Source of the DNA: Limimaricola variabilis
GTDB taxonomy: Bacteria; Pseudomonadota; Alphaproteobacteria; Rhodobacterales; Rhodobacteraceae
DNA: 64,000 bases
Reading direction: 5' to 3'
NCBI RefSeq assembly: GCF_014195545.1
Contig: NZ_JACIBX010000001.1
Coordinates: forward strand, 206,463-270,462
Shown here: piece by piece, positions 3,056 to 22,218 of the stretch
Numbering within the stretch: the stretch's first letter is position 1
Layout: each line of letters starts with the position of its first letter
Translations under genes and position numbers: made by a program
The notes under the pieces: model-generated
Databases searched by the model: none
Told to the model about the DNA's origin: nothing
The model's input: only the letters and a program-made list of their open reading frames with translations

Positions 3056-3649
3056 TCAGTTTGCCGCGAACCAGGCGTCGATGCGGGATTTCAGCCCGGC
3101 CCAGAGGGCAGGCGCGCCGCGCGCCACCTTGGTGCCGACGCGGCTTTCGAGCTGCTCCGGCGTGACATTGTATTCGGGCCAGGTGCCGCCGCCGGCCTCG
3201 AGGTTGGACAGCACCGGCTGCACCCGGTCGATCGACTTGGCAAAGACCGCGTCGTCGCTTTCGGCCGCCTCGAACTCTTCCCAGATGGCGCGCAGCGCCG
3301 CCCGTTGATCGACGGGCAAGAGGCCGAAGATCCGGTCAGCGGCGGCCTGCTCCTTGGCTTCCTGCTCGGCCGGGTCGTGATCGCCGTGGATCGGCGCGTC
3401 GCCGGCGTCGATCTCGACTAGGTCGTGCAGCAGCAGCATGGTCAGCACGCGGGAGATGTCGACCGGCCGCGCCGCGTGCTCGGCCAGCACCAGCGCGTGC
3501 AGCATGACGTGCCAGCTGTGCTCGGCCGAATTCTCGCGCCGCGACGCGTCGTGCAGCGTGGTGGCGCGCAGCACCGACTTGAGCCGGTCGGCCTCCGCGA
3601 GGAAGGCCAGCTGCGCGTCGAGCCGGGTCGCGCCGCCCGGCACGGTCAC
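3056..3649 (-). CDS. HD domain phosphohydrolase (YfbR/HDDC2-like)
   Basis: 197 residues. The HD signature is clear: ENSAEHSWHVMLHAL, then LLLHDLVEIDAGD, and later FAKSIDRVQPVL, giving the H...HD...D metal ligands of the HD superfamily, closest in layout to YfbR/HDDC2-type 5'-deoxynucleotidases. I place the start at the GTG at 3649 because it overlaps the TGA of the upstream alpha/beta hydrolase as GTGA, a common coupling in this genome. A second GTG six bases later is possible. The likely role is dephosphorylation of a nucleotide monophosphate; the substrate is inferred from family only. Confidence 0.88.
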   Translation of the reverse strand: MTVPGGATRLDAQLAFLAEADRLKSVLRATTLHDASRRENSAEHSWHVMLHALVLAEHAARPVDISRVLTMLLLHDLVEIDAGDAPIHGDHDPAEQEAKEQAAADRIFGLLPVDQRAALRAIWEEFEAAESDDAVFAKSIDRVQPVLSNLEAGGGTWPEYNVTPEQLESRVGTKVARGAPALWAGLKSRIDAWFAAN

Positions 3650-4299
3650 CGGGTGTTCTCGGTCAGCCTGCGCCCGACATAGCCCTTCACCGAGCCGATC
3701 AGCGTGTCCATGTGCGGGTCTTCGAAGAAGTGCCCGGCGCCATCGACCACTTCGTGGGTGATGGTGATGCCCTTCTGCTCGTGCAGCTTGTTCACCAGCC
3801 CGACCGTGTCGGCGGGCGGCGCGACGCGGTCGGCCGAGCCGTTGATGATCAGACCCGAGGAGGGGCAGGGCGCGAGGAAGGAGAAGTCGTACATGTTGGC
3901 CAGCGGTGCCACCGAAACGAAGCCGGTGATCTCGGGGCGGCGCATCAGCAGCTGCATCCCGATCCAGGCGCCGAAGGAGAAGCCCGCGACCCAGCAATGC
4001 TTGGCGTTGTTGTTCATCGACTGCAGGTAGTCGAGCGCCGACGCGGCGTCGGACAGCTCGCCCACGCCCTGGTCGTATTCGCCCTGGCTGCGGCCGACGC
4101 CCCGGAAGTTGAAGCGCAGCACCGTGAAGCCCATCTCGTAGAAGGCGTAGTGCAGGTTGTAGACCACCCGGTTGTTCATGGTGCCGCCGAATTGCGGGTG
4201 CGGGTGCAACACGATGGCGATCGGGGCGTCGCGGTCCTTTTGCGGGTGGTAGCGGCCTTCGAGCCGGCCCTCGGGGCCGGGGAAGATGACTTCGGGCAT
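3646..4299 (-). CDS. alpha/beta hydrolase (YsgA/CC-type dienelactone-like)
   Basis: 217 residues from the ATG at 4299 (MPEVIFPGPEGRLEGRY). An in-frame ATG at 4350 also exists but has no family-like sequence before the MPEV start. The nucleophile elbow GFSFGAW, the acid-bearing segment NGSADRVAPPAD and the terminal GAGHFFEDP supply a Ser-Asp-His triad. HPHPQFGGTMNN is the oxyanion-side loop seen in this widespread family of small bacterial hydrolases. It is cytoplasmic with no signal peptide. It overlaps the following HD hydrolase by 4 bp, and the two may act on related metabolites. Exact substrate unknown. Confidence 0.88.
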   Translation of the reverse strand: MPEVIFPGPEGRLEGRYHPQKDRDAPIAIVLHPHPQFGGTMNNRVVYNLHYAFYEMGFTVLRFNFRGVGRSQGEYDQGVGELSDAASALDYLQSMNNNAKHCWVAGFSFGAWIGMQLLMRRPEITGFVSVAPLANMYDFSFLAPCPSSGLIINGSADRVAPPADTVGLVNKLHEQKGITITHEVVDGAGHFFEDPHMDTLIGSVKGYVGRRLTENTR

Positions 4300-4336
4300 G
4301 GGCGTCCCTTGCGGCTGTGATGTCCATGACAGTTTC

Positions 4337-4373
4337 TTGACAGAAACCATCGGACACCTTAGAACGGTTCTAA
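4337..4373 (+). promoter_or_regulatory. iscR-suf promoter with palindromic operator over the -10
   Basis: TTGACA at 4337-4342, a 17-bp spacer, then TAGAAC at 4360-4365 form a good housekeeping promoter pointing to iscR. The -10 lies within the perfect 15-bp palindrome TTAGAAC-G-GTTCTAA (4359-4373). Palindromes of this type resemble the iron control element bound by Irr in alphaproteobacteria, and iron-responsive sites before iscR-suf are known there. Binding to the -10 would repress. The predicted 5' leader is about 105 bases. Whether Irr, IscR or another factor binds is inference. Confidence 0.7.
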
Positions 4374-4480
4374 CTCCGCGAGACCGGCTGCGGAGCGGCT
4401 GTCAGGGAGTTAACCAGCCCCCTTTGCGGCGTCAATGAGAATGGCCCCTCGGCTGGGCGCCAAAGCGGAGCAGAAACGCA

Positions 4481-4939
4481 ATGAAGCTGTCGACCAAGGG
4501 GCGCTATGCCATGGTGGCGCTGGCCGATCTGGCCTTGCAGCCCGCCGAGCGGCTGGTGACGCTGGGCGAGATCTCCAAGCGTCAAGACATCTCGCTGCCC
4601 TATCTCGAGCAGCTCTTCGTCAAACTCCGCCGCGACGGCCTGGTCGAAAGCGTGCGCGGTCCGGGCGGCGGCTATCGCCTCGCGCGGCCGGCCTCCGAGA
4701 TCCGCGTGGCCGAGATCCTCGGCGCCGTCGACGAGACGGTGAGCGCGATGCACAAGGGGGCCGGCGTCTCGGGCGGTGCCTCCGGCAGCCGGGCGCAGTC
4801 GCTCACCAATCGGTTGTGGGAGGGGCTGTCGGCGCATGTCTACGTGTTCCTGCACCAGACCCGGCTGTCGGACGTGACCGGCAACGCTCTGGCGCCTTGC
4901 CCGGCGGTGCCCTCGCTGTTCCAGGTGGTGGACGAATGA
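4481..4939 (+). CDS. iscR: Rrf2-family iron-sulfur regulator IscR, one-cysteine type
   Basis: 152 residues. The N-terminal winged helix MKLSTKGRYAMVALADLAL, the recognition region ISLPYLEQLFVKLRRDGLV and the wing GPGGGYRLARP are typical of IscR. The region that carries three cysteines in E. coli IscR has none here. The only cysteine is Cys140, with histidines at 91, 119 and 125. This matches the one-Cys, three-His cluster ligation reported for Rhodobacter sphaeroides IscR. It heads the suf operon and overlaps the next gene as ATGA, so it is expected to control iron-sulfur cluster assembly, including its own operon. Confidence 0.93.
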   Translation: MKLSTKGRYAMVALADLALQPAERLVTLGEISKRQDISLPYLEQLFVKLRRDGLVESVRGPGGGYRLARPASEIRVAEILGAVDETVSAMHKGAGVSGGASGSRAQSLTNRLWEGLSAHVYVFLHQTRLSDVTGNALAPCPAVPSLFQVVDE

Positions 4940-5979
4940 GCCGGATCTATCTCGATCACAACGCGACCGCGCCGCTGCGGCCCGAAGCCCGCGACGCGAT
5001 GATCGCCGCGATGGATGTCACCGGCAACCCGTCCTCGGTCCATGCCGAGGGCCGGGCGGCCAAGGCGATCGTCGAGCGCGCCCGGGCCGATCTGGCCGAA
5101 GCGGTGGGCGCGATGGCCGCCGATATCGTCTTCGTGTCCGGGGCGACCGAAGCGGCGGCGCTGGCGCTTGGCGAGCGCGGCCTCGACGGCGCGGCGATCG
5201 AGCACGACGCCGTGGCGGCCTGGGTGTCGGACACGCTCGCGGTGGACGGGCAGGGCCGGGTGACGGTGCCCGAGCCTGCGCGCGCGACGCTGCAGCTCGC
5301 CAACTCCGAGACCGGCGTGATCCAGTCGCTGCCGCAGGGCCTCGCGGTGTCGGACATCACCCAAGGCTTTGGTCGCATCCCCTTTGCCTTCGACTGGGCG
5401 GGGCTCGACATGGCGATTCTTTCGGCGCACAAGTTTGGCGGCCCCAAGGGGGTCGGCGCGCTGATCGTGAAACGCGGCACCGAGGTCGCGGCACGGATCC
5501 GCGGCGGCGGGCAGGAGATGGGCCGCCGCGCGGGCACCGAGAACGTGATCGGCGTGGCCGGCATGGCGGCCGCTGCCAAGGCGGCGCAGCGCGATCTCGA
5601 CGCCGGGGCCTGGGCGCGGGTGGAAAGCCTGCGTGACATGATGGAGCAGGCGGTGGAAAACGCCGCGCCAGATCTTATCTTCGCGGGCAGGGATGCCGCG
5701 CGGCTGCCCAACACGAGCTGCTTTGCAGCGCGGGGCTGGAAGGGCGAGACGCAGGTGATGGCGATGGACCTCGCCGGCATCGCGATCTCGGCCGGGTCGG
5801 CCTGCTCGAGCGGCAAGGTCCGCGCCAGCCGGGTGCTGACCGCGATGGGACATGACGAGGAGACGGCGCGATCGGCGATCCGCGTGTCGCTCGGACTGGA
5901 GACGACCGAGGAGGAGGTGACGCGCTTCGCGCAAGCTTGGGCCTCGGCTTACGGAAAAATGCGCGCCCGCGCGGCGTGA
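4936..5979 (+). CDS. NifS/IscS-like cysteine desulfurase
   Basis: 347 residues from an ATG overlapping the iscR stop. Class V aminotransferase fold: N-terminal [16 protein letters not shown] lysine in [10 protein letters not shown], substrate loop [11 protein letters not shown], and catalytic cysteine in [10 protein letters not shown]. It releases sulfur from cysteine as an enzyme-bound persulfide for iron-sulfur cluster building. The operon also encodes a second, SufS-type desulfurase at its far end, so this copy may be the IscS-like partner retained in Rhodobacteraceae suf operons. It is somewhat shorter than E. coli IscS (404). Confidence 0.93.
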
Positions 5980-5998: not shown

Positions 5999-7537
5999 AT
6001 GGCGATCCTCGAGCAGGACATGACCAAGGAAGCCAAGGAAGGCGTCGATCAGGAGACTGTCGATGCCGTGGCGAAGCTGTCGGGTGCCTACAAGCACGGC
6101 TGGAACACCGAGATCGAGATGGACTACGCGCCCAAGGGCGTGAACCCCGACATCGTGCGTCTGATCTCGGACAAGAACGAAGAGCCCGAGTGGATGACCG
6201 AATGGCGTCTGCAGGCCTTCGCGCGCTGGGAAAAGCTCGACGAGCCGAACTGGGCGATGGTCAACTACCCCAAGATCGATTTCCAGGACATCTTCTACTA
6301 TGCTCGCCCCAAGAGCATGGAAACGAAGCCGAAATCGCTCGACGAGGTCGACCCCAAGCTGCTGGAGACCTACAAGAAGCTCGGCATTCCGCTGAAAGAG
6401 CAGATGATCCTCGCCGGTGTCGAGGGTGCCGAGAATGCCGCGCCCGCCGATGGCGAGCGCAAGGTCGCCGTGGACGCAGTGTTCGATTCCGTCTCCGTCG
6501 GCACCACCTTCCAGAAGGAGCTGGAGAAGGCGGGCGTGATCTTCTGCTCGATCTCCGAGGCGATCCGCGAGCATCCCGAGCTGGTGAAGAAGTATCTCGG
6601 CACCGTGGTGCCGCAGTCCGACAACTTCTACGCCACGCTGAACTCGGCCGTGTTCTCGGACGGCTCCTTCGTCTACGTGCCGCCGGGCGTGCGCTGCCCG
6701 ATGGAGCTGTCGACCTATTTCCGCATCAACGCCGAGAACACCGGCCAGTTCGAGCGGACGCTGATCATCGCCGACAAGGGCTCTTACGTGAGCTACCTCG
6801 AAGGCTGCACCGCTCCCAAGCGCGACACCGCGCAGCTGCACGCCGCCGTGGTCGAGATCATCGTCGAGGAAGACGCCGAGGTGAAATACTCCACGGTGCA
6901 GAACTGGTATCCGGGCGACGAGAACGGCAAGGGCGGCATCTACAACTTCGTCACCAAGCGCGCCGATTGCCGTGGTGACCGGGCCAAGGTGATGTGGACC
7001 CAGGTCGAGACCGGCTCCGCCGTGACCTGGAAGTACCCGTCCTGCATCCTGCGCGGCGACGACAGCCAAGGCGAATTCTACTCGATCGCCATCGCCAACA
7101 ACCACCAGCAGGCCGACACCGGCACCAAGATGGTCCATCTGGGCAAGCGCACCAAGTCGCGCATCGTCTCTAAGGGCATTTCGGCCGGCCAGGCGCAGAA
7201 CACCTATCGCGGCCTCGTCTCGATGCACCCCAAGGCCAAGGAAAGCCGCAACTACACCCAGTGCGACAGCCTTCTGATCGGCGACAAGTGCGGGGCGCAC
7301 ACCGTCCCCTACATCGAGGTCAAGAACAACTCGTCGCGCGTCGAGCACGAGGCGACCACCTCGAAGGTCGATGACGAGCAGCTGTTCTACTGCCGCCAGC
7401 GCGGCATGGACGAGGAGGAGGCGGTGGCCCTCGTGGTCAACGGCTTCTGCAAGGAGGTGCTGCAGGCGCTGCCGATGGAGTTCGCCATGGAAGCCCAGAG
7501 CCTCGTCGCGATCTCGCTCGAAGGCTCGGTCGGCTGA
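5999..7537 (+). CDS. sufB: Fe-S cluster scaffold protein SufB
   Basis: 512 residues. The start at 5999 (MAILEQDM) is chosen because AAAAGGAG lies just upstream; a GTG at 5981 in frame lacks such a site. Visible SufB features: [20 protein letters not shown] near the N-terminus, [29 protein letters not shown], and the C-terminal [20 protein letters not shown]. SufB joins SufC and SufD into the scaffold complex that assembles [4Fe-4S] clusters in the cytoplasm. It shares one base (TGATG) with the next gene. Confidence 0.97.
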
Positions 7538-12552: not shown

Positions 12553-12629
<77 letters not shown>

Positions 12630-12791
12630 ATAATATTGGCATTTCCTCACATCGCAGCATTCGAGCCTCCCCGGTTTCGCCGGTGGTTTCGCTCCTTCGC
12701 GTCCGGAACGGACTGCAGATGAAAGGGGGCTCGGATTCCGATACAGCCGCTTGAGCGCCTCGATGTTTGAGGCCTGCTTTGCCCCTTTGGG

Positions 12792-12813
12792 GGAGGCCGG
12801 TACATCGGCCTCC
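12792..12813. repeat. inverted repeat between tRNA-Arg and cytochrome gene
   Basis: GGAGGCCG (12792-12799) and CGGCCTCC (12806-12813) form a perfect 8-bp stem with a 6-base loop. It lies 86 bases beyond the stop of the reverse-strand cytochrome c gene, so it could terminate that operon. The rest of 12630-12898 holds no gene that I can support. Confidence 0.45.
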
Positions 12814-12898
12814 GTTGATCGCTCCTGCCATGGGCGACCGGGTCCTGAGGCTTCCAACAGGTATCAGCTTCGACGGGCAATAGACGACGACGTCGTCC

Positions 12899-13399
12899 TT
12901 ACTCCTTACCCGCGGCCCCGGCCGAGACTTCGGCCTGGAAGGCGCGCTCGCGCTCGGGCCAGCTGGACTTGATGAAGGCCAGCACCGCCTTGATGTCCGC
13001 GTCGCTCAGCACCTCCGCGAAGGCAGGCATGTCGCTTTCATAGCCGGGCACGACCGCGCCGAGGCCGTGCTTGGTGATGGTGAAGAGGTCGCGGTCGGCA
13101 TGGTGCCAGGTGTGGCCGCTCTCGTCATGCGGCGGGGCGGGCATGCGCCCGTCCTCGGTCCGGCGACGCCAGTCGGGCTGACCCTCGAGCTGCGCGCCAT
13201 GGCAGGCGGCGCAACTCTCAGCATAGACCGCGTCCCCTCGCTCGACCATCTCCGGCGTGACGGGCTCTCCGAGAATGGAGAGCCCTGCGATGTCTGCAGT
13301 CGGGGTCGTGGCATCGTCGATCAGGCCCTGCGCCACCGCCGCGATCGCCGCGGCGCCGAGCAGGCCCGCGCCGGCGGTGATGGCCAGCTTCTGTCTCAT
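12899..13399 (-). CDS. class I c-type cytochrome
   Basis: 166 residues: an N-terminal signal or anchor ([25 protein letters not shown]), one haem site CAACH in [15 protein letters not shown], and a probable axial Met in [14 protein letters not shown]. This is a mono-haem, cytochrome c551/c552-like periplasmic electron carrier. It overlaps the Met-rich small gene upstream as ATGA and belongs to the set BNR protein - DUF411 - Met-rich protein - cytochrome. That context suggests periplasmic copper handling or copper-linked electron transfer, which is inference. Confidence 0.9.
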
Positions 13400-13563
13400 C
13401 GCGCGCTCCTCAGGAACTTGATCAGTGCCGCCGCGCCCAGCACGAGCAGCACGAGTACCAGTACCATCACGAGGCCGCCTCCGGCCATCATGGCGCCCAT
13501 CATCGGTCCGTTCATCATCGATCCGTCCATCATCGACATCATTCCTTCCATGCAGTCATTCAT
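13396..13563 (-). CDS. Met-rich single-TM small protein
   Basis: A 55-codon frame running from the ATG at 13563 (overlapping the DUF411 stop) to a TGA that overlaps the cytochrome ATG. The N-terminal half holds ten or more Met, mostly as MM pairs (MMSMMDGSMMNGPMMGAMM), followed by the helix GLVMVLVLVLLVLGAAALI and a basic tail FLRSAR. An internal ATG at 13551 would give 51 residues. Met pairs at this density are typical of periplasmic Cu(I)-binding segments. Overlaps on both ends argue for real translation. Function is inferred only. Confidence 0.72.
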   Translation of the reverse strand: MNDCMEGMMSMMDGSMMNGPMMGAMMAGGGLVMVLVLVLLVLGAAALIKFLRSAR

Positions 13564-14047
13564 CGGAGAACACCGTGATTTCGTCGCCCGAGAAGGCGTA
13601 GGCCTTGAGAGTGCCGCTCTTGCCGCCCATGCCGGGGGCGTTCATCGGCATGCCGGGCAGGGTGATGCCGGTGATCTCGGGGCGCTCAGTGGTCAGGCGC
13701 TCAACGATCTCGGCTGGGACCAGCCCGCTGACATAATAGCCGTCGACCTCCGCGAGATGGCAGCCAAGGCCTTGCTCGGGCACGCCGGCCTCGATCGAGC
13801 GCTTGTCGAAATCGCGGTCGTCGATCCGTGTCACGTGATAGCCGTTTTCCTCCATGTAGTCGGCATAGGCGTCGCAACAGCCGCAGCCCGGGTCGCGCCA
13901 GATCGTCATCTGTCGATCGGCGGGGATGGTGGCCTCGTCAGGCGCGGGTGCCGCGCTGTCTGGCTCGGCGGTGGTGATGTTCGCGACCCCGATGATGGCG
14001 GCGGCAGCGAGGGCCAGGGCGGTACCGGTGAATAGCTTGTGGTTCAT
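13556..14047 (-). CDS. DUF411 periplasmic metal-binding protein
   Basis: 163 residues from the ATG at 14047. A signal peptide (MNHKLFTGTALALAAAAIIG) is followed by the DUF411 domain: thioredoxin-like start MTIWRDPGCGCCDAYADYM with Cys55, Cys57 and Cys58, then LGCHLAEVDGYYVSGLVPAE with Cys96-His97, and the conserved TLPGMPMNAPGM region rich in Met. DUF411 proteins are small periplasmic proteins tied to copper resistance. The set of Cys, His and Met ligands here is intact. It sits one base from the BNR-type gene and overlaps the Met-rich gene. Confidence 0.9.
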   Translation of the reverse strand: MNHKLFTGTALALAAAAIIGVANITTAEPDSAAPAPDEATIPADRQMTIWRDPGCGCCDAYADYMEENGYHVTRIDDRDFDKRSIEAGVPEQGLGCHLAEVDGYYVSGLVPAEIVERLTTERPEITGITLPGMPMNAPGMGGKSGTLKAYAFSGDEITVFSDE

Positions 14048-14048
14048 C

Positions 14049-14984
14049 TCAGTTGTCCTTGAAATTTTCGTAAGAGGTCCAGCTGCTTCCGCCGTCACGC
14101 GAGACGCACAGCCCGGTGGAGCCTGCGGCCAGCACGTGCAGCGGATCGGAGGGATCGACGGTGAGCGCGGTGAGAGGCTCGCGCGTGGCCTGCGCCCAGT
14201 TCACGCCCGCATCCTCCGACAGCCACAGCCCCGAGGGCAGCGCCGCATAAAGGCGCTCCGGCGCTTTGGCCGCCAAGGCAAGGATCTCGACCGGTTCTCC
14301 CTCGGGCAGCGAGGCGGCGGCCACGGGGGTATCGCCTGCGACGAGGGCATCCATCGCGTCGCCCGCAACCACGTCCTGCCAGCGGCAGAAGCAGTCGGGC
14401 ACCCGTGTCAGCCCGGCCCGCGTCCCGGCATAGAGCCAGATGCCGCCCATGCCGGTCTCGTGGGCCACGGAGACGAGGCTCAGCACGTCATGCTCCGCGC
14501 CGCCGAGATAGGGGCGATCCATGACGAATTCCCACGTCGCGCCGCCGTTTTCGCTGCGCCACAGCCCGTCGCCTTCGAGCGCGGCATAGACGGTATCGGG
14601 TGCCTTTGCGGCCAATGTGAGCGAGAGGATCGCGGCGCCTGGCAGCCCGTTATCGGCTGCGCTCCAGCTTTTCCCGCCATTCTGGCTGCGACGGAGGCTG
14701 CCATCCTTCCAGCCCGCGAGGATCAGGCTCGGGCGGTCCGGATGCGTGGCGAGCGAGACGGGGCCCGGCGGAACGTCCAGCCGGGTCCAACGATCGGCCC
14801 CCCGGCGCAGCAGCCCGTCAGGCGTCGCGGCGAGAAGGGCAGCCCCGTCGAAGGCGAGAGCTGTGACGGTATCCGGAGGAGACGACCGGGCAAGGCCCGG
14901 GGCAAGCATCGTCATGCCCATCGCGGCAAGGCCGGAGGACAGGACGCGACGGCGCGACAGCGCGCCTGCGACGAAAATGGTCAT
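14049..14984 (-). CDS. BNR/YCF48-like beta-propeller protein, exported
   Basis: 311 residues. The N-terminus SRRRVLSSGLAAMGMTMLA has a twin arginine followed by a hydrophobic stretch, which fits a Tat signal. The body has repeated Asp-box-like units: SQNGGKSWSAADNGLP, SENGGATWEFVMD, SEDAGVNWAQATREP and SRDGGSSWTSYENF. Such S-x-[DN]-G-G-x-[ST]-W blades define BNR/YCF48-type propellers, often mislabelled sialidases. It leads the copper-flavoured cluster and probably acts in the periplasm as an assembly or sensing factor. No catalytic residues can be assigned. Confidence 0.85.
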   Translation of the reverse strand: MTIFVAGALSRRRVLSSGLAAMGMTMLAPGLARSSPPDTVTALAFDGAALLAATPDGLLRRGADRWTRLDVPPGPVSLATHPDRPSLILAGWKDGSLRRSQNGGKSWSAADNGLPGAAILSLTLAAKAPDTVYAALEGDGLWRSENGGATWEFVMDRPYLGGAEHDVLSLVSVAHETGMGGIWLYAGTRAGLTRVPDCFCRWQDVVAGDAMDALVAGDTPVAAASLPEGEPVEILALAAKAPERLYAALPSGLWLSEDAGVNWAQATREPLTALTVDPSDPLHVLAAGSTGLCVSRDGGSSWTSYENFKDN

Positions 14985-15074
14985 GAGGGGTATCCCGAGA
15001 AGGAGAAGGTCGGTTCGACGCCCGCCTGCGGGCAGACAGGGCGATACCGGGCCGTCACCTCGCGGTGCGGCCGG

Positions 15075-15416
15075 TCAGCTCAGGATGGTGGTTCGTGGGG
15101 GTGCGGGATCGAAGCCGGGCTGGCGCGCCCGCGCAGTCGCATCGCCGGGCCACGAGAGAATGGTCCCGGCGACCGCCTGCGGCACTGCCTCGGGCGATGT
15201 CTCTGTCGACATCAGAGGCGCGGTACAGTCGAAGTCGCAGACCATCTGCTCCTCCGCATCCTGCGCGCAGGCGGGGCAGGTGTCGTCCTGCTGCTCGGCC
15301 ATGGCCGTCGCCGTCATGTCAAGCGACATCCGCGCCCCGGCAACGTCGTGCAACAGCACCCCTCCCAGAAGGGCGAGCGAGAGGCAGAACGTGGCGAGGC
15401 GGACCCAGAGGCGCAT
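15075..15416 (-). CDS. small exported Cys-rich protein, possibly metal-related
   Basis: 113 residues: signal peptide MRLWVRLATFCLSLALLGGV, then a short domain with DDTCPACAQDAEEQMVCDFDC, giving CxxC and CxxxC pairs that could bind a metal or form disulfides. It is 90 bp upstream of the BNR gene on the same strand. Small proteins of this kind often sit near copper genes (the DUF2946 type is comparable), but I cannot assign the family with confidence. Confidence 0.62.
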   Translation of the reverse strand: MRLWVRLATFCLSLALLGGVLLHDVAGARMSLDMTATAMAEQQDDTCPACAQDAEEQMVCDFDCTAPLMSTETSPEAVPQAVAGTILSWPGDATARARQPGFDPAPPRTTILS

Positions 15417-15520
15417 GATGCCGATCTAGGAAGGCGCGCGGTTCCTGTCCACTGGGCGACGCCGAAAGCCGCTCACGAAGCCGTCAGTATCGGGGGCGCC
15501 GTCGAAAGGCGCCCGTCGCC

Positions 15521-15545
15521 GGAACGTGGGACGGTCTCACCCGTT
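15521..15545 (+). promoter_or_regulatory. EcfG-type general stress promoter before the CBS gene
   Basis: GGAAC (15521-15525), 16 bases, CGTT (15542-15545). This matches the GGAAC-N16/17-CGTT consensus of promoters read by EcfG-family sigma factors in alphaproteobacteria. The -10 core lies 30 bases from the ATG at 15575, the right distance for a short leader. Confidence 0.65.
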
Positions 15546-15574
15546 CTTCCTGACATGCAACACAGGAGCGGATC

Positions 15575-15988
15575 ATGCAGGTTCAGGACATCATGACGCG
15601 CGACCCCGCCTGCTGCGCACAGGACAGCACCATACAGGAGGCGGCCAAGCTGATGGCGCAGCATTCGATCGGCGCCGTGCCGGTGCTCGACGATACGGGC
15701 ACGCCCATCGGCATCGTCACGGATCGCGACATCTGCTGCGGCTCGGTTGCCGAGGGCAAATCGGGGGAGATCGCGGTCTCGGAGATCATGACCAGGGACG
15801 TTCTCACCACCTCTCCCGAGGAAGATGTCTCGTCGTGCTGCAACAAGATGGAGCAGCGCCAGGTGCGCCGCGCCGTCGTGACGGATGGCGACGGCAAATG
15901 CTGCGGGATCGTGGCGCAGGCCGACGTGGCGCGAAAGGCGCAGGGCGCGGAAACCGCCGACCTCGTCCAAAAGGTCTCGCAGCCCTGA
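15575..15988 (+). CDS. CBS-pair protein with four Cys-Cys dipeptides
   Basis: 137 residues forming two CBS domains: MQVQDIMTRDPACCAQDSTI to GIVTDRDICCGS, then VSEIMTRDVLTTSPEEDVSSCC to GIVAQADVAR. CBS pairs bind adenosine nucleotides and act as energy or stress sensors. What is odd is four vicinal cysteine pairs at 13-14, 54-55, 88-89 and 109-110, at equivalent places in the two repeats (after the IMTRD element and near the end of each domain). These could form a redox or metal-sensing set. A good AGGAGCG site precedes the ATG, and an EcfG-type promoter lies upstream. Confidence 0.88.
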   Translation: MQVQDIMTRDPACCAQDSTIQEAAKLMAQHSIGAVPVLDDTGTPIGIVTDRDICCGSVAEGKSGEIAVSEIMTRDVLTTSPEEDVSSCCNKMEQRQVRRAVVTDGDGKCCGIVAQADVARKAQGAETADLVQKVSQP

Positions 15989-16017
15989 GGTGGCCTCGGC
16001 GTCGCGACGAATGACCG

Positions 16018-16046
16018 GCAGCCGCCCCCGTTTCTAGGGCGGCTGC
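16018..16046. terminator. hairpin between convergent CBS and kinase genes
   Basis: GCAGCCGCCC (16018-16027) and GGGCGGCTGC (16037-16046) form a perfect 10-bp stem. It lies between the convergent ends of the CBS gene and the histidine kinase and may stop transcription from both sides. There is no T-run, so termination efficiency is uncertain. Confidence 0.5.
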
Positions 16047-16102
16047 GCCGAGGGGCCATGCCGGGTCGCAAGGCGTTCAGGGCAGGGCGGTCTGAGCCCC
16101 GC

Positions 16103-17500: not shown

Positions 17501-17526
17501 GGAACCCCGCCACCGGCGATCCCGTT
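17501..17526 (+). promoter_or_regulatory. EcfG-type general stress promoter before ku
   Basis: GGAAC (17501-17505), 17 bases, CGTT (17523-17526), ending 33 bases before the ku ATG. It is the second good match to the EcfG promoter consensus in 2 kb, which would place Ku-LigD under general stress control. EcfG-dependent ku genes have been described in rhizobia. Confidence 0.62.
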
Positions 17527-17558: not shown

Positions 17559-18404
17559 ATGGCATCGCGTCCCGTTTGGAAGGGCCAGCTGCGCCTGTCG
17601 CTGGTCGCGATCCCGATCGAGCTGCATTCAGCCCGTGAGAGCGGGTCGAAGACCTCATTCCGGCAGATCCACAAGCCCTCGGGCAAGCCGGTGAGCTACC
17701 AGAAGGTGGTGGCGGGGCTCGGCCCCATCGACACGGACGAGATCGTGAAGGGCTTTCAGACCGCCAAGAACGAATACGTTCTGATCGAGCCCGAAGAGAT
17801 CGAGGAGATCCGGCTCGAAACCAAGAAGACGTTGGAAATGGTGCAGTTCGTCGAGCAGGGCGAGATCGCGCCGCTCTACTACGATGCGCCGTACTACGTC
17901 GTGCCCGCCGACGAGCTGGCGCAGGACGCCTATCGCGTCGTCCGCGACGCGCTGCGCCAGACGGGCAGGGTGGGTCTGGGTCAGTTGACCATGCGCGGGC
18001 GCGAATACCTCTGCGCGATCCGGCCTTGCGGCGACGGGCTGCTGCTTGAGACGCTGCGCTACGAGGACGAGATCCGCAAGGCCGACCCGCTCTTCAGCCA
18101 GATCGAGGACGACCCGGCCGACAAGGAGCTTCTGAAGGTCGCGACCCAGCTGATCGAGAGCAAGTCGGCGCCGTTCGACGCCTCGATCTTCGAGGATCAC
18201 TACGCGCGGGCGCTCAGGGAGCTGGTGGCCCGCAAGTCCCGTTCCAAGAAGGCGCCGCGCGCCAAGCCGGGCGAAGACAAACCCGAGGTCGAGACCGACG
18301 CCAAGGGCAACGTGGTCGACCTGATGGCGGCGCTGAAGAAGAGCCTCGCGGCCGACAAGGCATCAGGCGGCAAGAAGTCTGCGCCGCGCAAGAAGGCCTC
18401 GTAG
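17559..18404 (+). CDS. ku: non-homologous end joining protein Ku
   Basis: 281 residues from the ATG at 17559, preceded by GCGGAG. An upstream in-frame ATG at 17544 lacks a ribosome site. The start RPVWKGQLRLSLVAIPIEL and the following KTSFRQIHK... and PLYYDAPYYVVPADELAQDAY are the classical bacterial Ku core. The C-terminus is a lysine-rich tail (KSRSKKAPRAKPGED, KKSAPRKKAS) of the kind that binds DNA and recruits LigD. Ku forms a ring on double-strand breaks. LigD follows after 10 bp, so they form an operon. Confidence 0.97.
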   Translation: MASRPVWKGQLRLSLVAIPIELHSARESGSKTSFRQIHKPSGKPVSYQKVVAGLGPIDTDEIVKGFQTAKNEYVLIEPEEIEEIRLETKKTLEMVQFVEQGEIAPLYYDAPYYVVPADELAQDAYRVVRDALRQTGRVGLGQLTMRGREYLCAIRPCGDGLLLETLRYEDEIRKADPLFSQIEDDPADKELLKVATQLIESKSAPFDASIFEDHYARALRELVARKSRSKKAPRAKPGEDKPEVETDAKGNVVDLMAALKKSLAADKASGGKKSAPRKKAS

Positions 18405-21110: not shown

Positions 21111-22218
21111 CGATACTTGAACCGCGACTCCTTGGTGGGTTTAGGGTAGGGCGCTCACGTCCTCTTCTCCAGCATCTTGGCCCGGAACACCTCGGCGGGG
21201 GTTCTCCATCCGAGGCATTTGCGCGGCGTAGCGTTCAGCCGGTCGCAGATCTCGCGGATGTCGTGGTCGGAGAGTTGGCCGATGTCGCGTTCCCGGGGCA
21301 GCCAGCGGCGGGCACGGCGATTAGTGTTCTCGACCGTGCCTTTCTGCCATGGCGCGGAAGGGTCGCAGAACCAGCTGCTCGTGCCGATCTCGGCCTGGAG
21401 ATGCGGCCACGAGACGAACTCGGTGCCACGGTCGAAAGTGATCGATCTGCGCGCCGGCTGGGGCAGGGCACGGATCGCCGCGATGACCTTGTCCATGACG
21501 GGTCGGGTCCGCTTGTCGGCGTTCTTCAGCAGTACAGTGAACCGGCTGACTCGCTCGACGAGCGAGGTCACGTTTGCGGAGCCGAACCGTTGCCGGAACA
21601 GCATCAAGTCTGCCTCCCAGTGCCCGAACTGGGAGCGCTGTGCCACAGCCTCGGGCCGGAACAGGATGCTGACATCGCGGTGAAATTTCGGCGCGCGACG
21701 CTTGCGGGCGCGTCTCGGGCGGCGGGCCTTGCGGTGGGTCGGCAGATACCACCACAGCTCGTCACGCATGCCTTCCTTGGCGTAGATGTAGCGATAGATG
21801 GTTTCCTGGCAGACCCGTAGCGGCGCGCGCTCCATGCGCATCCGGCCAGCGATCTGCTCCGGGGTCCAGCCATCCTTTATCCGATCGACGACCTGGTCAC
21901 GCAGCTGCGGATGCCGGATCAGCTTGCGCTGCCGGGCGCGACGGTCACTGGTTCTCAACTGCGCGGCCATCGCGAAGTAGCCCACGACCTTCGGCATGCA
22001 GGGATCCTGAAAATGATTGCGCCTGAGTTCGCGGAAAATGGTCGAGCGGTGACGCTGCAATACCCGCGCCATCTCGTTCACGGACACCCTGGCATGGCGC
22101 CAGCGTTCGATCCTGCGCCGTTCCTCGAGCGTCAACTGCGCGTAGACACGTCCCATACTGGAAAACTCCTGCTTGATAGGGCATTGTTTTCAAACAAGAG
22201 TCGCAGTTGGAAGTAGCG
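21111..22218 (-). mobile_element. IS30-family insertion sequence
   Basis: A single transposase gene framed by imperfect inverted ends. Right end, 22198-22215, reads AGTCGCAGTTGGAAGTA. Left end, reverse complement of about 21114-21130, reads AGTCGCGGTTCAAGTA. These match except for a G/A change and a GG-to-C change. The total is about 1.1 kb, normal for IS30. Exact tips and target duplication cannot be set by eye. The element separates the end-joining genes from the secretion locus. Confidence 0.85.
21155..22156 (-). CDS. IS30-family transposase
   Basis: 333 residues, complete. N-terminal HTH for end recognition: QLTLEERRRIERWRHARVSVNEMARVLQRHRSTIFRELRRN. The DDE catalytic core carries the first Asp in GHWEADLM, the second in SITFDRGTEF and the Glu in GTVENTNRRARRWLPRE, with the IS30 family's DYxxxE-like spacing. 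The frame is intact and the start (MGRVYAQLTLEERRRIE) is standard, so the element could still be active. Confidence 0.96.
   Translation of the reverse strand: MGRVYAQLTLEERRRIERWRHARVSVNEMARVLQRHRSTIFRELRRNHFQDPCMPKVVGYFAMAAQLRTSDRRARQRKLIRHPQLRDQVVDRIKDGWTPEQIAGRMRMERAPLRVCQETIYRYIYAKEGMRDELWWYLPTHRKARRPRRARKRRAPKFHRDVSILFRPEAVAQRSQFGHWEADLMLFRQRFGSANVTSLVERVSRFTVLLKNADKRTRPVMDKVIAAIRALPQPARRSITFDRGTEFVSWPHLQAEIGTSSWFCDPSAPWQKGTVENTNRRARRWLPRERDIGQLSDHDIREICDRLNATPRKCLGWRTPAEVFRAKMLEKRT

Follow-up and report, generated by a model that had tools for sequence, protein, structure and literature searches.

A CBS-pair protein with four vicinal cysteine pairs on an accessory stretch of Limimaricola variabilis and its candidate link to copper and thiol handling

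The locus and its accessory character

The 64,000-nucleotide stretch of Limimaricola variabilis DNA analyzed here (the window) contains a gene for a CBS-pair protein, which is flanked by genes for a cytochrome c and a DUF411 protein on one side and by Ku and LigD genes on the other (Table 1). The cassette also encodes a BNR/sortilin-like repeat protein and a small protein with a CPAC..C..C arrangement, and a homologue of the latter was found in 8 of 33 loci that encode a relative with all eight cysteines described below. An IS30-like transposase gene lies near Ku/LigD at 21155-22156; it has an HTH_38 domain, and its integrase core scores slightly under the cut-off.

Table 1. Positions of the genes, cysteine codons, and promoter-like sites of the locus, numbered within the window.
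Feature	Position	Strand	Basis or remark
tRNA-Arg(ccg)	12553..12629	+	Long match to genus-mate G107 ends at last base
Cytochrome c	12899..13399	-	
DUF411 protein	13556..14098	-	
BNR/sortilin-like repeat protein	14049..14984	-	'exo-alpha-sialidase' in Limimaricola plasmid annotation
Small protein, CPAC..C..C	15075..15416	-	Signal-like N-terminus (by eye); no Pfam or NCBIfam match
EcfG-type general-stress promoter-like site GGAAC-N16-CGTT, GGAACGTGGGACGGTCTCACCCGTT	15521..15545	+	Motif match; starts 54 bases before start codon
CBS-pair (Bateman module) protein, 137 aa, eight Cys as four vicinal pairs	15575..15988	+	ORF, Pfam, alignment
C13-C14 codons, loop / start of beta-1, CBS1	15611..15616	+	Sequence, DSSP of model
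C54-C55 codons, helix alpha-2, CBS1, within TDRDICC	15734..15739	+	Sequence, DSSP of model
C88-C89 codons, helix alpha-1, CBS2	15836..15841	+	Sequence, DSSP of model
C109-C110 codons, start of beta-3, CBS2	15899..15904	+	Sequence, DSSP of model
Second EcfG-like site	17501-17526		Before Ku gene (17559-18404), then LigD

The CBS gene is located on an accessory stretch that starts at the 3' end of the tRNA gene, an island-type junction, because the long DNA match to the genome of G107, a genus-mate, extends through the final base of tRNA-Arg(ccg) and no further. The next 2.7 kb in G107 are without a DNA match. This genome has no match to the profile of the CBS family at E 1e-20; elsewhere it contains diverged sequences that resemble the region of the cytochrome c and DUF411 genes (C11 301947-302909, 72% and 67%). 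A Limimaricola plasmid carries the block of the window in the same order, with 77% DNA identity over 91% of positions 12700-16100, and has DsbE, SCO, and CcdA genes beyond the cytochrome c gene. The cassette does not stand out in GC content (0.679 versus 0.67). A second integration end was sought, and no copy of the tRNA 3' end was found besides the gene itself; a pair of attachment sites is not supported. DNA matches to positions 12700-16100 are present in 239 plasmid records; in the 12 of these that were listed, the matched region is that of the cytochrome c, DUF411, and BNR genes, and the CBS gene is reached in a single record.

Fold, cysteine set, and C-terminal tail

The protein matches PF00571 (CBS) in two stretches with 108.9 bits (cut-off, 24; E 1.5e-31). 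This is its sole Pfam match at E <= 0.001; an HMA or metallothionein domain is absent, and a signal peptide is not evident. Five other CBS matches in the same genome are weaker (best, 47 bits versus 285). The protein has exactly eight cysteines (positions 13, 14, 54, 55, 88, 89, 109, and 110), and all of them are paired, as the earlier note had described for this CBS-pair ORF. Given eight cysteines in 137 residues, four vicinal pairs would arise by chance with a probability of 5e-6. The same note had also placed the pairs at matching positions of the two CBS repeats, and here it was mistaken. When the repeats are aligned (residues 3-53 with 68-118; offset, 65), each pair faces non-cysteine residues: C13-C14 corresponds to T78-T79, C88-C89 to A23-A24, C109-C110 to P44-I45, and C54-C55, by extrapolation past the end of the repeat alignment, to A119-R120.

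A structure was modeled with AlphaFold2 from an alignment of relatives (A1), with a mean pLDDT of 88.9. In the DSSP assignment of the model, C14 opens beta-1, C54-C55 lie in helix 50-58, C88-C89 lie in helix 85-95, and C109-C110 open strand 109-114. The four internal pairs are placed on four different structural elements, and a joint metal site built from them is putative. The top fold matches in the PDB are tied. Hrp1 (1xkf/1y5h; Z 19.6 for 1xkf) has the same fold over 119 residues at 1.3 A with 32% identity, and the CBS pair of MJ0100 (3kpc; Z 19.5) has it over 122 residues at 1.5 A with 33% identity. We know of no report of four CC pairs, a Gly-Cys-Cys (GCC) tail, or a link to copper islands for either protein. 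CBS pairs occur widely in bacteria as orphan regulators, and for many of them no signal is known. Binding of an adenine nucleotide or SAM is predicted for the present CBS pair from the retained TDRD stretch, in which T49 and D52 are invariant in the 21 rows of A1 (rows chosen by hand).

Some of the eight cysteines could also provide an iron-sulfur cluster or a structural zinc site in a dimer, as might be expected from their conservation and from the closest solved fold, 1xkf, which is titled with two zinc ions. The suf genes that adjoin the cassette in the window would also fit. However, they belong to the chromosomal side of the tRNA-Arg junction, which is common to the genus-mate without the CBS protein. 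Neither a CxxC nor a CxxxC spacing is present in the window copy. We regard such a site as very unlikely.

A scan of genome contigs gave 183 relatives, of which the best 80 loci were retained, and 163 distinct relatives were aligned by a profile built from A1. The 21 rows of A1 were hand-picked from rows with all CC pairs; therefore, cysteine invariance within A1 is by choice. The counts per identity class were not hand-picked, yet the profile behind them stems from A1: all eight cysteines are present in 29 of the 30 distinct rows with at least 50% identity to the window protein (itself included), in 2 of 17 rows with 40-50% identity (mean of 3.6 cysteines at the eight sites), and in none of the 116 distinct rows below 40% identity. 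Down to about 50% identity, the eight cysteines are conserved together. The statement that ordinary CBS pairs are without these cysteines is thus borne out, and the CC pairs do not vary at random among homologues, a point on which the earlier note had made its proposal depend.

Plasmid copies are less uniform: all four pairs are present in 6 of 12 (46-75% identity). Across the whole survey, many loci are near-copies, so that the counts do not represent independent events (L041 is the record of L187; L184/L195 and L185/L192 encode identical proteins). C54 is the site most often lost among the plasmid copies read (5/12). Ala occupies this position in four of them (five in the tally by site); the Deinococcus copy L188 is without Cys54 and Cys55 and keeps six of the eight cysteines. 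The plasmid copy L194 has an internal deletion spanning the third pair. In a tree computed from 137 columns (24 open forks), the eight-cysteine rows require four changes. Thirteen alphaproteobacterial eight-cysteine rows form one well-supported group (100/97), and the remaining ones interleave with partly cysteine-bearing rows. The partial states seen, such as CC.CCCCC and.CC..C.C, would be compatible with either stepwise filling or loss. A search for viral relatives gave 12 stretches that fit a pattern, none of which encodes a relative. One assembly of Devosia subaequoris has the CBS gene twice in nearly identical form, along with a piece of a further copy (L020, L022, and L051); all are close to or at the ends of contigs, as would be seen with a repeated mobile element. 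In the Acidobacteria loci L033 (4502-5014) and L039 (3578-4042), a second CBS protein is encoded just upstream, with single cysteines at the pair places (by eye).

In 40 of the 48 copies read to the stop codon (L007-L023, L025-L032, L034-L036, L041, and 11 plasmid loci), a C-terminal extension ends in Gly-Cys-Cys and adds a fifth pair. The tail is absent from L037, from the copies of Acidobacteria (L033 and L039), Chloroflexota (L038), and Deinococcus (L188), from the partial relatives L040 and L042, and from the window copy, which ends with SQP and stops at 15986-15988, seven residues short of its nearest relatives. Because several copies, including that of the window, are without it, the tail is not taken as defining for the eight-cysteine group. 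A C-terminal CC was found in 0 of 319 neighboring ORFs and in 0 of 37 control CBS proteins read in frame, which were the usable ones of 42 control reads (L051 is a fragment of the eight-cysteine kind, and L058, L061, L077, and L079 were read off the gene). In the accessible text of two papers on mercuric reductase (MerA), a cysteine pair on a flexible C-terminal segment is described to hand Hg(II) to the active site (PMC10587081, PMC3466566). A vicinal pair thus stands at the extreme C-terminus of both kinds of protein, and the GCC arm of the CBS relatives may be seen as an analogue of the MerA arm. However, MerA is a flavoprotein without homology to the present family, in which the pair ends a CBS-pair protein and is missing from the window copy.

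The protein might still be a nucleotide sensor of the ordinary CBS-pair kind that is carried along by metal islands, with its cysteines serving as packing or lineage-specific residues without chemistry. Its fold is that of an ordinary Bateman module, T49 and D52 of the TDRD stretch do not vary in the hand-chosen rows of A1, and the five plasmid copies mentioned above manage without C54. However, the eight cysteines are kept while most other residues change, and the island context and the C-terminal GCC arm also speak against this explanation, which we consider distinctly unlikely.

Gene neighborhood and promoters

Metal or thiol-redox genes were found in all 12 plasmid regions opened (from the 16 best plasmid matches). 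The metal genes comprise those for copper P-type ATPase, multicopper oxidase, CusB/A-type efflux, DUF411, SCO, cation efflux, metal-sensing regulators, and cupredoxins. Pfam families were tallied among mechanically picked ORFs, and 25 families were listed for each tally. For 145 neighboring ORFs at 15 eight-cysteine loci, the list (of 146 families) is headed by AhpC-TSA (12), Redoxin (8), VKOR, SPW, and Epimerase (7 each), SCO1 (6), and Cation_efflux, DSBA, and Pyr_redox_2 (5 each), and it also contains Cu-oxidase, DUF411, and MerR (4 each). None of these families is among the 25 listed of 250 for the control set, which comprised 131 ORFs from 15 loci of ordinary CBS pairs in mixed phyla; cobW (2) and Peripla_BP_2 (2) come closest to metal there. 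At 16 loci whose CBS proteins have one to seven of the cysteines (142 ORFs), the metal or thiol kind is represented among the 25 listed of 246 by Pyr_redox_2 (2) and ACR_tran (2) only, a contrast that is confounded because 13 of the 16 loci come from the phylum of L039. The tallied ORFs represent 145 of 168 picked (minus L009 and ten small ORFs), 131 of 151 (minus L082 and ten others), and 142 of 153 (minus L238), respectively.

A tblastn context test with copper and thiol queries, which is biased by queries that came from such islands, gave a match in 28 of 33 eight-cysteine loci versus 3 of 42 controls. No match was obtained at L007, L012, L031, L033, and L039. The last two are the Acidobacteria copies, each of which has a DsbA-like gene downstream, and the Deinococcus copy with six of the eight cysteines sits in a clear copper island. 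Because of these three cases, the metal context is not general to eight-cysteine copies; it is a trait of the Alphaproteobacteria and Deinococcus copies. The P-type ATPase at L037 has cation-ATPase N/C domains and is not of the copper type. Arsenic and zinc received no specific support, and mercury is represented by one locus, L025, where a MerA above the NCBIfam cut-off with a MerF-like segment is encoded near the CBS gene (3624-5345). The earlier note had located the CBS gene among copper and stress genes. The flanking cytochrome c, DUF411, and Ku/LigD genes agree with this description in part; the link to copper is much plainer in the relatives than in the window. Neighborhood shows shared transfer, not function. 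A glutamine cyclotransferase-like gene was observed at L033, downstream of the eight-cysteine gene, and at L224. A GAF-histidine kinase next door was considered as a conserved partner and rejected, as weak matches were found only in L037 and the controls L076 and L058.

The promoter-like site before the CBS gene of the window has the form of the EcfG motif published for Rhizobium etli (PMC3892343, accessible text). In a scan of 20 loci (that of the window plus the 19 full-length ones closest to it, L007-L023, L025, and L026), a strict site was found in 10 loci versus 0.006 expected, and a relaxed site, whose pattern was set after an earlier result had been seen, was found in 19 loci (the window and 18 of the 19 relatives) versus 0.048 expected; the expected numbers come from first-order resamplings rather than exact shuffles. 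The sites lie 53-59 bases before the start codon in 17 of the 19 loci and 74 bases before it in two. Thirteen other loci have one strict and one relaxed site. The whole window contains two strict sites versus 0.73 expected, which is not remarkable; therefore, the support for an EcfG-type promoter rests on recurrence across loci. The relaxed pattern resembles the motif GGAAC-N17-20-GTT of Sphingomonas melonis, for which Ku is listed with a putative EcfG-binding motif; 'CBS' was not found in the main text of this paper (PMC6599016, in its accessible part). NepR (PF18557) is above the cut-off in the window genome. A GGAAC-N16/17-CGTT-like promoter before the CBS gene suggests membership in the EcfG regulon of Alphaproteobacteria, a prediction made from sequence only.

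A second type of control is suggested for other relatives. When upstream regions were scored against what we take to be the CueR-type operator form, a TTGACCTTCC-N7-GGAA-type dyad with a spacer of 19 bases (our own count) and at most three mismatches was found in 10 of 34 loci (L027-L032, L034-L036, and L194), which are nearly all sphingomonad and represent few independent lineages. The ten operators are located 109-137 bases before the CBS gene. An equally good match occurred in 0 of 100 first-order resampled sequences for nine loci and in 1 of 100 for L031. The other 24 loci, including the sphingomonad plasmids L185, L192, and L193 with copper genes, have 5-7 mismatches; the best match in the window has 7, and no such operator was found in the Rhodobacterales/Hyphomicrobiales loci tested. 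The dyad also precedes genes divergent from a cueR-like gene (L028 and L032) and a multicopper oxidase gene (L036 and L194). In 43 control loci, it was absent from the 350 bases before position 6001 and occurred 6 times in 494,777 bases; these controls include the eight-cysteine-kind fragment L051, and in a few of them the match begins elsewhere than at 6001.

The MerR-family protein encoded beside this dyad in L028 has CueR as its best match (E 3.8e-42; 143.4 bits, slightly under the curated cut-off of 147.4) and a C-x7-C loop (CTNDDRPDC), and the regulator in L194 is 'Cu(I)-responsive' in the public annotation. The arrangement resembles the CueR regulon (copA, cueO, cus) in the operator type before the CBS gene and in the CueR-like gene near it in L028 and L194, whereas the window copy is without such an operator. 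We know of no CBS protein among the members of the CueR regulon, and the literature searched names none. Taken from the sequences, a copper or thiol link of the protein is supported by the gene neighborhood and by the CueR-type operators in most sphingomonad loci read.

Candidate mechanism and a co-traveling fusion protein

Copper or thiol handling is the probable role of the eight-cysteine CBS protein, which seems to be undescribed. No description of an eight-cysteine CBS family, or of a GCC tail on a CBS pair, was found in the literature searched, in which few subscription journals were covered. The fold and the regulons are of already known kinds; their combination and the GCC tail on a CBS pair are new to this literature. 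For this definable group of CBS proteins, conservation, neighborhood, and promoter agree in indicating a single signal, namely copper or thiol stress.

A copper- or stress-induced cytosolic Bateman module, with dithiols that bind a thiophilic metal, likeliest Cu(I), or form disulfides, has in our judgment about an even chance of being the correct description. The protein would be a stand-alone CBS pair of the cytosol that travels with copper and heavy-metal resistance cassettes in Alphaproteobacteria. In most sphingomonad copies, rising cytosolic Cu(I) would switch it on through the CueR-type promoter, and in the window and its closest relatives, the general stress sigma factor EcfG would induce it. 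Metal binding or disulfide formation at the dithiols (the four CC pairs of the fold, to which most relatives add another on the GCC arm) may then alter the dimer or nucleotide state, and the metal would be buffered, handed on, or reported to a partner. A more specific version is tentative and somewhat unlikely: a nucleotide-gated buffer or relay for Cu(I) (or Hg(II)), with four dithiols and a mobile MerA-like GCC arm, induced by CueR or stress, which would link the energy state to copper detoxification. If the CC pairs bind Cu(I), the protein would be a cytosolic copper component, perhaps coupling adenine nucleotides to copper handling; to our knowledge, such a component is absent from models of resistance islands.

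The abundance of thiol-disulfide genes in the islands brings in a metal-free redox switch, in which the CC pairs would be reversible disulfides served by these genes (TlpA/DsbE, CcdA, DsbA, and SDR-SPW-VKOR) and would report cytosolic disulfide stress caused by copper. The AhpC-TSA, Redoxin, VKOR, and DSBA families are the commonest neighbors in the tally of eight-cysteine loci, and the SDR-SPW-VKOR protein co-occurs with the eight-cysteine protein, as detailed below. However, most enzymes of this kind work outside the cytosol, vicinal disulfides within helices are strained, and the CueR-type control points to Cu(I). We consider a metal-free switch unlikely.

The co-occurring protein, of 850 residues, joins an SDR epimerase to SPW repeats and VKOR; the gene for this fusion recurs near the eight-cysteine CBS gene (e.g., L009 6692-9241). 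Among 295 genomes of the family to which the window belongs, the fusion is present in 11 and the eight-cysteine protein (E below 1e-60) in 2, both of which have the fusion; the chance of this coincidence is about 0.0013 (hypergeometric, our own arithmetic). In a set of 16 genomes searched, the fusion is present in 8 of 11 with the eight-cysteine protein versus 0 of 5 whose relative is partial. The CBS protein is absent from nine of the 11 family genomes with the fusion, and the copy of the window genome is on another contig (G000:C14:13623-16067); therefore, the fusion is a co-traveler and not an obligate partner of the CBS protein. At L038, a Chloroflexota locus, separate ORFs encode the SDR portion and the VKOR-SPW portion.
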